A stretch of DNA of 36,325 nucleotides. It comes from Candidatus Saccharimonadia bacterium (GTDB lineage Bacteria > Patescibacteriota > Saccharimonadia > Saccharimonadales > Saccharimonadaceae). Shown one piece after another: positions 23,070-29,812 of the stretch (position 1 is the stretch's first letter; each line of letters starts with the position of its first letter). Made by a program: the position numbers and the translations under genes. The notes under the pieces were generated by a model, which was given only the letters and a program-made list of their open reading frames with translations, ran no database searches and was not told the DNA's origin. The stretch spans positions 1-36,325 of the forward strand of contig JALRBE010000009.1 of NCBI GenBank assembly GCA_023262335.1, given 5' to 3'.

Positions 23070-23145
23070 GCCGCTGTAGCTCAGTTGGTAGAGCGGCGCT
23101 TTCGTAAAGCGTAGGTCTCCGGTTCAAATCCGGACAGCGGCTCCA
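23070..23145 (+). tRNA. tRNA-Thr(CGT), CCA encoded, discriminator U73
   Basis: Loop TTCGTAA; acceptor GCCGCTG/CAGCGGC + TCCA; extended -10 TGCTATAAT upstream. Confidence 0.95.
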
Positions 23146-25968: not shown

Positions 25969-26034
25969 ATAGATGCTTGGTAGCCGTATTATCGTAACAG
26001 ATTCGGACAAGTGTTGCAATAACCGGGGTGGGTG

Positions 26035-26215
26035 CGTTATGATGACAAGTGAGCGACGATGCGGACCAACCACCCGCTGAGCTCCGTGAGGCGTAGGAGC
26101 GTACGACAACGCTGCTTCATAAGTGAAAGTCCGGTGGAACCGCCCGTACGAACGGGCCCGAGACATGCGATTTATGGATTTACGGAGTGAATCTGAACAT
26201 CGCATGTTTTTATTT
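26035..26215 (+). promoter_or_regulatory. T-box riboswitch (thrS leader) with transcription terminator
   Basis: Antiterminator GTCCGG[TGGAACC]GCCCGT-acga-ACGGGC-CCGAGAC (26129..26164); mutually exclusive terminator acatgcgat...atcgcatgtttttattt (26163..26215); directly upstream of thrS. 5' boundary approximate. Confidence 0.85.
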
Positions 26216-26235
26216 ACCTAAACGAAAGGAACGAT

Positions 26236-28047
26236 ATGAACGACGAGCAACTGCACGCTATGCGCCACAGCTTGGCACACATTACCGCCACCGCTGTAAA
26301 GCACCTGTGGCCAGAGGCAAAATTCGGCATTGGACCGGTGGTCGAGAACGGCTTTTATTATGACATCGACCTTGGCGACACGAAAATCAGCGAGCAGAAC
26401 TTTCCAAAAATCGAGAAAGAGATGCGGAAGGTTATCGCGCAGAACCAAGAATTCGTGCGTTCGACCAAGCCGGTCGACGAAGCGATCAAGTGGGCCAAGG
26501 AAGGCAAGCAGCCTTACAAAGAAGAGCTGTTGAACGACCTGAAGCGCAGCGGCACGACGGTCGCCAAGGATCTCGACGCTGATGCCATGGGTACGATCGC
26601 TGACGGGGACGCTGCCGTAGAAGAGGTCGGGTTTTATACGAACGGTGACTTTACCGATCTTTGCCGCGGGCCGCATGTGGCGAGTACCAATGAGGTCGGT
26701 GCGTTCAAGTTGATGCGCGTCGCTGGCGCGTATTGGCGCGGCAACGAAAAGAATCCGCAGATGCAGCGTTTGTACGGCGTGGCATTCGCGACCCAAGAGG
26801 AGCTCGACGTGTACTTGGAGCGCCTGGAGCAGGCGAAACTGCGCGATCACCGAAGACTTGGCAAGGAGTTGGACCTCTTTACGTTTTCCGATCTCGTCGG
26901 TTCTGGCCTGCCGCTCTATACGCCGCGCGGTACGCTGATTCGTGACGGACTCATCAAGCTTTCCGAGAACGTTCGCTCGGAAGTCGGCTTCCAGAAGGTG
27001 TGGTCGCCGCACATTACCAAAAAAGAGCTTTATGAAAAATCCGGCCATTGGGCAAAGTTCGGTGACGAACTGTTCCTCGTGAAGAGCCAGGAGACGACGG
27101 ACGAGCTTGTCATGAAGCCGATGAACTGCCCTCACCATGCGCAGATTTACGCTTCCAACCCAAGGAGCTACCGTGACCTGCCTTTGAAATACATGGAAAC
27201 CACCACGAACTACAGAGATGAAAAGACTGGTGAATTGCACGGATTGAGTCGTGTCCGTTCGCTGAGTCAAGACGACAGTCATACGTACTGCATGCCCGAG
27301 CAGGTGGACGAGATTTTCGATCAGCTCATAGAAAAAATCCAGTATTTTTACAAGGCGATCGACATGGACCTGAAGCTGCGGCTTTCGCTGCGCGACGACA
27401 GTCCGTCGTATCTTGGTCCTGACGAACTATGGGATTTCGGCCAGAAGAAGCTCGCGGAAATCGCCGAGCGCCACCACATTGATTTTTACAGCGAAGAGGG
27501 TGAAGCGGCATTTTACGGCCCCAAGCTCGATTTCATGGCTGAGGATGCCATAGGTCGGACGTGGCAGGTCGCGACTATCCAATTCGATTTCGTGCAGCCA
27601 GAACGCTTTGAGCTTGAATATATCGACGCTGACGGCACCGCGAAACGGCCTATCATGGTACACTGCGCGATCATGGGCAGCTTCGACCGCTTCTTCTCGG
27701 TGTTCATCGAGCATACAGCCGGTTGGTTCCCGTTCTGGCTGGCACCGGAGCAGGTTCGTATTCTGACGATCAACGACACCGTGCTGGATTACGTCGAAGA
27801 GATCGAGACGGTACTGCGCGATACGGTGCTTATGGCGCCGATAAAGTATAACGAGATCCGCTTTGCCCGCGATGATCGCAACGAGTCGCTCGGCAAGAAA
27901 ATCCGCGAGGCTACTGCCTGGAAGATTCCTGTCCAACTGATCGTCGGCCCGAAGGACAAAGAGGCGCGTGAGGTGAGTGTCCGTACGCAGCAGGGCGAAG
28001 AGAAGGTCTCTCTTGACGCTCTCGCTGACTATCTTAAACGGCTATAA
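26236..28047 (+). CDS. thrS: Threonyl-tRNA synthetase lacking N-terminal TGS domain
   Basis: RHSLAHITATAVKHLWP, MNCPHHAQIY, class II motifs, anticodon-binding C-domain; RBS aaaggaa. Confidence 0.95.
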   Translation: MNDEQLHAMRHSLAHITATAVKHLWPEAKFGIGPVVENGFYYDIDLGDTKISEQNFPKIEKEMRKVIAQNQEFVRSTKPVDEAIKWAKEGKQPYKEELLNDLKRSGTTVAKDLDADAMGTIADGDAAVEEVGFYTNGDFTDLCRGPHVASTNEVGAFKLMRVAGAYWRGNEKNPQMQRLYGVAFATQEELDVYLERLEQAKLRDHRRLGKELDLFTFSDLVGSGLPLYTPRGTLIRDGLIKLSENVRSEVGFQKVWSPHITKKELYEKSGHWAKFGDELFLVKSQETTDELVMKPMNCPHHAQIYASNPRSYRDLPLKYMETTTNYRDEKTGELHGLSRVRSLSQDDSHTYCMPEQVDEIFDQLIEKIQYFYKAIDMDLKLRLSLRDDSPSYLGPDELWDFGQKKLAEIAERHHIDFYSEEGEAAFYGPKLDFMAEDAIGRTWQVATIQFDFVQPERFELEYIDADGTAKRPIMVHCAIMGSFDRFFSVFIEHTAGWFPFWLAPEQVRILTINDTVLDYVEEIETVLRDTVLMAPIKYNEIRFARDDRNESLGKKIREATAWKIPVQLIVGPKDKEAREVSVRTQQGEEKVSLDALADYLKRL

Positions 28048-28050
28048 ATC

Positions 28051-28647
28051 ATGGCGAAGGCTAAGATTGCGCTTGATATCGATGACGTCACGGCGGACAG
28101 TACCGAGTCGCTGAGGCTTCTCGTGAATGAGCGTATGGGGGTGAGCCTGACACGCGAGGATTATCTGGTGTCATCCGGTCATGCCGACTATTACGAATAC
28201 GTTTGGGAAAAGAATGGTCTGAAAGACATCAACTACGCGGCGTTCGAGGCAGAGATGGAAGTCGACCAGTCGCATGTGCCGCTCATGGATGGTGTCAAGG
28301 AAGCTATGGTGACGCTGAGCAAGACGTATGACATCGTCTTCATTACCGCACGTGATGTCGCCTGGGAGAAGGCGACACGAGAATGGTTCGCGCGGCATTT
28401 CGACGGTGATGTCGAGCTGTATTTCTCCGAAGGGTATACCAATGTGGGCAGGATGACCAAAGGGCAGATATGTAAGGCTGTCGGCGCGCAGTGGTTGATT
28501 GACGACGTGCCGAAGCATTGTCAGAGCGCGCTTGACGAAGGAGTAAGGGCTATTTTGTTTGGCACGTACGGATGGCATGGCGACGTGCCCGAAGGCGTTA
28601 TCCGCTGCAAAGACTGGCAGGAGGTCAAAAAGGTGCTTGAGGCATGA
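28051..28647 (+). CDS. HAD-family phosphatase, 5'(3')-deoxyribonucleotidase-like
   Basis: IALDIDDVTADS HAD motif, VFITARD, WLIDDVPKH. Confidence 0.75.
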   Translation: MAKAKIALDIDDVTADSTESLRLLVNERMGVSLTREDYLVSSGHADYYEYVWEKNGLKDINYAAFEAEMEVDQSHVPLMDGVKEAMVTLSKTYDIVFITARDVAWEKATREWFARHFDGDVELYFSEGYTNVGRMTKGQICKAVGAQWLIDDVPKHCQSALDEGVRAILFGTYGWHGDVPEGVIRCKDWQEVKKVLEA

Positions 28648-28955
28648 GCGACGGCGCATTCAGGCGACGTGTCGAAGAGCTGATGGCACAGGTTCCATAC
28701 GGCCACGTAACGACATATGGCGATCTAGCGGCAATGGCCGGCCAACCCGCGGCGAGTCGCATCGTTGGCGGTATCGCGCACTTTGGTGACCCTGATTTGC
28801 CATGGCATCGGCTCGTGAATCGCTTTGGCGGGCTTGCGAGCGGATTTCATGGTGGCCGTGAAGCCCAGGCTCAGCTTCTTGAGCAAGAAGAAATATATTG
28901 TACGAATCACATCGTCGATAACTTTAAGGATATTCGATGGCAACCCCACCTCTGA
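28644..28955 (+). CDS. Alkyltransferase-like protein (ATL), MGMT family with Cys to Trp active site
   Basis: VPYGHVTTYGDLAAMAGQPAASRIVGG ... LPWHRLVNRFGGLA (PCHR replaced by PWHR). Confidence 0.88.
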   Translation: MSDGAFRRRVEELMAQVPYGHVTTYGDLAAMAGQPAASRIVGGIAHFGDPDLPWHRLVNRFGGLASGFHGGREAQAQLLEQEEIYCTNHIVDNFKDIRWQPHL

Positions 28956-29812
28956 TTGTTGTTGTAGGTCCTACAGCAAGTGGCAAAACCGCTCTGGCTA
29001 TCGACCTGGCAAAGCGCTTTGGTGGCGAAATCATTTGTGCCGATAGCAGGACGGTGTACAAGGGAATGGATATCGGCACGGCCAAGCCAAGCGCGGCAGA
29101 CCGCGCGGCAGTACCTCATTGGGGCTTGGATCTCGTAGAGCCCGGTGAACGGTTTACGGCGGCTGATTTTCAGCGGTACGCGACAGCGAAGATAGCCGAG
29201 ATACGAGAGCGTGGCAACGTGCCGTTCCTCGTCGGGGGTACGGGGCTGTACGTGGACGGGGTCGTCTTTGCATATCAATTCGGTCCCGAAGCCGACGCTA
29301 CGGCGCGCGCGCTGCTTGAAAGCATGAGCTTAGAAGAATTAATAAATTATTGTGTTGATAGCAACATAAACGTGCCAGAAAATAAGAATAACAAACGGTA
29401 CGTCATTCGTGCGATCGAGCAGAAGACGGTGAATGAGAAGAGAAGTAGTGAGCCGATACACGGTGCGATCATTGTAGGAATCGCTACGGAACGCAATGAG
29501 TTGCGAACACGAATAGAATCCAGAAGTGAACAACTTTTTCAAGATGGAATGGTAGAAGAGGCAACAATGTTGGGCAAAAAGTACGACTGGGACAGCGAGG
29601 CCATGACGGGTAATATTTACAGGCTCGTTCATGAGTACCTGCTCGGTAAAATAACGCTTGAGGAAGTGAAGCGAAAATTCGCTGTTCGAGATTGGCAGCT
29701 CGCGAAGCGGCAGCTGACATGGCTACGCCGAAATCCCCACATCAGGTGGCTTGATCGTGAACAAGCGGCTGCGTTTTTGTCTGAGCGCCTCGAAAACTGG
29801 CACGAATCATGA
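28937..29812 (+). CDS. miaA: tRNA dimethylallyltransferase
   Basis: VVVGPTASGKTALAIDLAKRFGGEIICADSRTVYKGMDIGTAKPS; overlaps ATL gene by 19 nt. Confidence 0.95.
   Translation: MATPPLIVVVGPTASGKTALAIDLAKRFGGEIICADSRTVYKGMDIGTAKPSAADRAAVPHWGLDLVEPGERFTAADFQRYATAKIAEIRERGNVPFLVGGTGLYVDGVVFAYQFGPEADATARALLESMSLEELINYCVDSNINVPENKNNKRYVIRAIEQKTVNEKRSSEPIHGAIIVGIATERNELRTRIESRSEQLFQDGMVEEATMLGKKYDWDSEAMTGNIYRLVHEYLLGKITLEEVKRKFAVRDWQLAKRQLTWLRRNPHIRWLDREQAAAFLSERLENWHES

Follow-up and report, generated by a model that had tools for sequence, protein, structure and literature searches.

A short-Stem I T-box riboswitch predicted upstream of thrS in a Saccharibacteria genome, and T-box leaders elsewhere in Patescibacteria

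For T-box riboswitches, an elbow clamp and an S-turn Stem II are thought to be necessary for tight tRNA binding. T-boxes are on record in Firmicutes, Actinobacteria, Chloroflexi and Deinococcus, as well as in a few Proteobacteria (PMC2494555). In classes I and II, Stem I is long, the tRNA elbow is clamped and the target is transcription; in classes III and IV, Stem I is short or of intermediate length and control is mostly translational (PMC10482949, PMC7583486). The open-access literature searched, outside which most subscription papers lie, held no mention of T-box riboswitches with Saccharibacteria, Parcubacteria or Patescibacteria, and no paper in which T-box, riboswitch and candidate phyla radiation occurred together. 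Judged by these open-access papers, as distinct from the species lists of Rfam and TBDB, T-boxes in Patescibacteria may not have been described before. What appears to be new is the lineage, together with the coupling of a short Stem I to termination of transcription.

The window, that is, the whole stretch of DNA analysed, comprises 36,325 nucleotides of a Saccharibacteria genome (contig JALRBE010000009.1). A first-pass annotation had placed a T-box riboswitch controlling thrS at 26035-26215. The predicted regulated gene, thrS (threonine--tRNA ligase; TIGR00418, 589.5 bits), occupies 26236-28047 on the forward strand, as do all features given below; its closest relatives are from Candidatus Saccharibacteria, and the draft genome measures 1.13 Mb at 88.6% completeness. 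Sequence comparison identifies 26050-26215, 5' of thrS, as a T-box riboswitch. The positions proposed earlier for the antiterminator and terminator stood, but the leader starts at about 26050 rather than 26035. Covariation, codon, bulge and an independent model all supported both the identity of the element and its assignment to thrS, and on these comparative grounds thrS transcription is very probably under the control of a tRNA-Thr-sensing T-box riboswitch. Directly after thrS come three tightly spaced ORFs, among them miaA (tRNA i6A37 synthesis) and a gene similar to ogt, the whole group spanning 26236-29812; with this spacing the T-box may control an operon.

The thrS loci of 60 genomes and 80 public contigs were gathered, many with the same leader; 82 distinct leaders were compared, and Stem I was parsed in 81. 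When 37 leaders were aligned by MAFFT without structural information, 90.2% of cells paired, and 22 of 27 pairs, distributed over Stem I, the pseudoknot and the antiterminator, changed on both sides. There were 152 cells changed on both sides, compared to a mean of 49 after shuffling and a maximum of 28 after sliding. For all 82 sequences, in an alignment fitted to the model, the count was 400 compared to 130 shuffled and up to 70 slid. The covariation check that had been proposed for homologous thrS leaders therefore gave a strong result, on the structure-free alignment. On the raw alignment RNAalifold failed to recover the antiterminator and instead placed a spurious hairpin across the bulge; structures were therefore named by hand and then counted.

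Covariance model R2, whose 18 training leaders all came from other families of the order, found 26050-26164 (87.4 bits, E 3.6e-20, E-values of this model and of model R1 being rough). Chance is excluded because this was the sole match in the whole genome for a model trained on other families, and because GTGGAACC recurs upstream of thrS in dozens of relatives. The pattern RRNGGTGGNACCGC had no match in the window's genome, since the bases before GGTGG are TCC here and not RRN. The first-pass annotation had named the lack of a significant T-box match as grounds against its call, and Rfam RF00230 indeed gave none in the genome, scoring 9.0 bits at 26127-26161, where the gathering score is 93. 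We ascribe this to the long Stem I that RF00230 expects, not to the absence of a T-box.

A predicted promoter at 26014-26043, with a -35 box TTGCAA (26014-26019) and a -10 box TATGAT (26038-26043), would start transcription at about 26050. As the -10 box ends at 26043, Stem I, which begins at 26051, starts about where transcription is expected to start. Of 79 relatives' leaders with a -10 match, 72 had the box 6-8 nt 5' of the start of Stem I, a spacing into which a long canonical Stem I cannot fit. The shortage of upstream space for a canonical Stem I, remarked on at first pass, is thus explained by a promoter directly before an ultrashort Stem I. Covariation places this stem at 26051-26084, with helices GAGC/GCUC (26051-26054/26081-26084) and GCGG/CCGC (26061-26064/26074-26077). 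These helices were 92-99% paired, with compensatory changes in 8 of 8 pairs of the structure-free alignment, and the consensus in relatives was GAGC-NNN-GA-N-GCGG-[loop]-CCGC-N-GA-GCUC, with the codon within the loop. A kink turn is predicted at the base of Stem I from its sequence signature (26055-26080): a 3-nt bulge GAC (26055-26057) and tandem GA (26058-26059) facing GA (26079-26080), the NNN-GA/GA arrangement being present, as sequence, in 76 of 81 parsed leaders.

The Stem I loop carries the specifier codon ACC at 26069-26071. All 81 parsed leaders of the 82 had a Thr codon at this position (ACC 70, ACU 5, ACG 5, ACA 1), always followed by a purine (A 71, G 10). The specifier candidates put forward earlier were incorrect: 26083-26085 reads TCC, and the ACG at 26103-26105 is a pseudoknot strand. 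Threonine codons could also act by stalling a ribosome on a leader peptide and so attenuating transcription, and in this one genome an ATG at 26059 does start a short reading frame. However, in most relatives GAC replaces the GAT of this genome, which removes the ATG; in addition, indels disrupt the frame, it is not rich in Thr, and the helices covary. Leader-peptide attenuation was considered and rejected on this evidence as extremely improbable.

The tRNA side of the predicted interaction agreed with a T-box for threonine. All three tRNA-Thr of the genome (GGU, UGU and CGU) end in UCCA, that is, they have U73, which among the listed tRNAs of the genome occurs only in those for Thr, Lys and Cys. 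The proposed match of bulge UGGA to U73, made for tRNA-Thr(CGU) at 23070, which ends in UCCA, therefore extends to the whole set. The likely ligand is tRNA-Thr(GGU), encoded on a different contig, and not the tRNA-Thr(CGU) of the window, because GGU reads ACC by codon pairing and CGU does not.

Downstream of Stem I, a predicted pseudoknotted hairpin occupies 26085-26113. CGU (26085-26087) pairs with loop ACG (26103-26105), and the stem is formed by AGCGU/ACGCU (26098-26102/26109-26113). In the 82-sequence alignment the CGU/ACG pseudoknot was about 96.6% paired, with U-A replaced by C-G, and it lies outside the fitted model. No separate S-turn Stem II was seen by eye in the window leader; the ileS leaders of relatives differ in this respect. 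An outer Stem II helix GAGGC/GCUUC in the window fold was paired in only 47% of cells, and we do not claim it as conserved. The following linker, AAGUG-AAA (26121-26128), resembles in sequence and alignment the described RRRNG-Stem III-AA motif (PMC7778990). A Stem III hairpin is absent from the window leader and present in some relatives.

The T-box antiterminator (26129-26164) was as first described, with a 7-nt bulge UGGAACC (26135-26141) whose UGGA (26135-26138) is the predicted tRNA-pairing element. It is composed of GTCCGG (26129-26134), the A2 strands GCCCGT/ACGGGC (26142-26147/26152-26157) and the 3' strand of A1, CCG-A-GAC (26158-26164). Across the 82-sequence alignment, A1 was paired in 93% and A2 in 95% of cells, with covariation, and the bulge UGGA was present in 81 of 82 distinct leaders. 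Folding predicts an intrinsic terminator at 26163-26215, with stem ACATGCGAT/ATCGCATGT (26163-26171/26199-26207) and a U-tract at 26207-26215, which overlaps the 3' strand of A1. The overlap of 2 nt noted previously was seen again as the AC common to both helices, and becomes 5 nt (GAGAC) if U-tract pairs are counted. Comparison of leaders and tRNA genes thus established the helices, the codon, the bulge, the terminator overlap and U73.

Calculated folding energies were -33.7 kcal/mol for the terminator state and -30.9 kcal/mol for the antiterminator state, a difference of 2.8 kcal/mol in favor of the terminator, suggesting that off is the default and that tRNA would have to tip the switch. 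Binding of tRNA, sensing of aminoacylation and the direction of the response follow the analogy of known T-boxes. Stem I would fold as the RNA emerges, and its loop would offer ACC for pairing with the GGU anticodon of tRNA-Thr. The 3' UCCA of an uncharged tRNA would pair with the bulge UGGA and lock A1/A2, which would block the base of the terminator stem and let RNA polymerase read into thrS. The 3' end of charged tRNA-Thr would be unable to pair, the stabler terminator would form, and transcription would stop before thrS. The strict overlap, at only 2 bp a point against this reading, adjoins the U-tract at the foot of the terminator stem; from what is known of intrinsic terminators, we infer that loss of pairs there would suffice to disable termination.

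Known T-boxes with a short Stem I raise the possibility that this one acts mainly on translation and that its terminator is incidental. Class III short-Stem I T-boxes mostly regulate translation (PMC10482949), and the thrS leader of one relative (L056, 1818-1942) has no terminator before the Shine-Dalgarno sequence and is perhaps translational. However, a terminator with a U-tract overlapping A1 was kept in 77 of 82 leaders, by 3-5 nt when U-tract pairs are counted, and the Shine-Dalgarno sequence of thrS, AAAGGA (26225-26230), is 3' of the terminator and not part of it. We therefore regard a mainly translational mode as very improbable and favor transcriptional control.

On every feature testable here the leader agreed with membership of the T-box family, within which it is, by sequence, a variant. 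Similar to class III ileS T-boxes of Nocardia farcinica and Mycobacterium tuberculosis, it has a short Stem I without the elbow-binding double T-loop, a kink turn at the Stem I base (here as a signature only), a specifier in the apical loop and a downstream pseudoknot (PMC10482949, PMC7583486). Unlike these, it has a transcription terminator, precedes thrS rather than ileS, occurs in Patescibacteria, and apparently has one pseudoknotted hairpin in place of the S-turn Stem II and Stem IIA/B. With class I thrS T-boxes of Firmicutes (RF00230) it shares the gene, a Thr specifier, the T-box bulge and the antiterminator/terminator switch, but its Stem I, of 34 nt, lacks the long distal part, and the score is 9 bits compared to a cut-off of 93. 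In its predicted transcriptional control and apparent lack of an S-turn Stem II it resembles class II (B. subtilis glyQS), which, however, retains a long Stem I with a double T-loop that the window leader does not have. Its sequence features thus combine the short Stem I of class III with predicted transcriptional control. The mostly translational control of class III was not found, the terminator being conserved and the Shine-Dalgarno sequence outside it; the difference in control mode, and the failure to find a separate S-turn Stem II, argue against classing the leader as an ordinary class III T-box.

Of 298 genomes sampled from the order, 127 had a match to model R1, in nearly all cases a single one, leaving about 57% of these genomes without a match. 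Among 389 genomes sampled across the phylum, R1 matched 55 and RF00230 matched 129 at E up to 0.001, only 13 of these above its own cut-off. The two lists had 22 genomes in common, which gives about 162 of 389 sampled Patescibacteria with a T-box by these tests. The extension of T-boxes to Patescibacteria suggested at first pass therefore holds, and is wide.

Outside the order, genes 3' of R1 matches were mostly thrS, and also encoded GlyRS, AspRS, TyrRS, ValRS and IleRS. Where a short Stem I was parsed, GlyRS leaders had specifier GGA or GGC and bulge UGGA. The corresponding pairs were GAC and UGGC for an AspRS leader (L288, 1934-2083), UAC and UGGU for a TyrRS leader, and, in some Saccharibacteria, AUC and UGGU for IleRS leaders; tRNA-Gly with U73 and tRNA-Asp with G73 were present in the two genomes concerned. 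That codon and bulge both track the downstream gene is the strongest argument, on sequence grounds, for tRNA sensing. E. coli ThrRS binds its own leader as a tRNA mimic, and the hairpin beside thrS, with a loop of 7-9 nt, could be read as a similar site for autoregulation. That reading has next to no probability and was also rejected: the loop holds a codon and not an anticodon, UGGA and the terminator are left unexplained, and leaders of this architecture, with codons that match, stand before genes for GlyRS, AspRS, TyrRS and IleRS.

T-boxes in about two fifths of the sampled Patescibacteria, many of them under the Rfam cut-off, would revise both the known range and the minimal size of these riboswitches. 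A short Stem I that controls transcription also tests the view that transcriptional T-boxes require contact with the tRNA elbow. Patescibacteria may hold an ancient, separate transcriptional branch of T-boxes, in which a kink-turned Stem I of 34 nt alone decodes, without elbow clamp and S-turn Stem II, in leaders of down to 85 nt; we put this forward tentatively, as a possibility that falls a little short of probable. Patescibacterial T-boxes would also provide a native regulatory handle in bacteria that live as obligate epibionts, have reduced genomes and may rely on their hosts for amino acids.

Several further leaders were observed. Stem II was lacking in thrS T-boxes of one Patescibacteria family (L211 1966-2050, L218 333-417 and L243 2033-2119), in which the stretch from Stem I through the antiterminator is about 85 nt long. 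Most thrS genes of gut and rumen Saccharibacteria (L069-L110) had no leader, suggesting loss. Some Saccharibacteria had a second T-box, before ileS (L285 1973-2113, L286 313-465 and L287 295-464), with a short Stem I carrying AUC, an S-turn-like AGUAGAA, Stem III, UGGU and a terminator. One ileS leader (L242 1981-2103) departs from the match of bulge to gene, having UGGA where A73 of tRNA-Ile would predict UGGU. A T-box-like leader was found directly 5' of a DNA-3-methyladenine glycosylase I (tag) gene in one Saccharibacteria genome (L185 478-640), an unusual target. The locus with the AspRS leader also gave a weak match to a type III hammerhead ribozyme (L288 495-549; 37.4 bits, cut-off 48.5).
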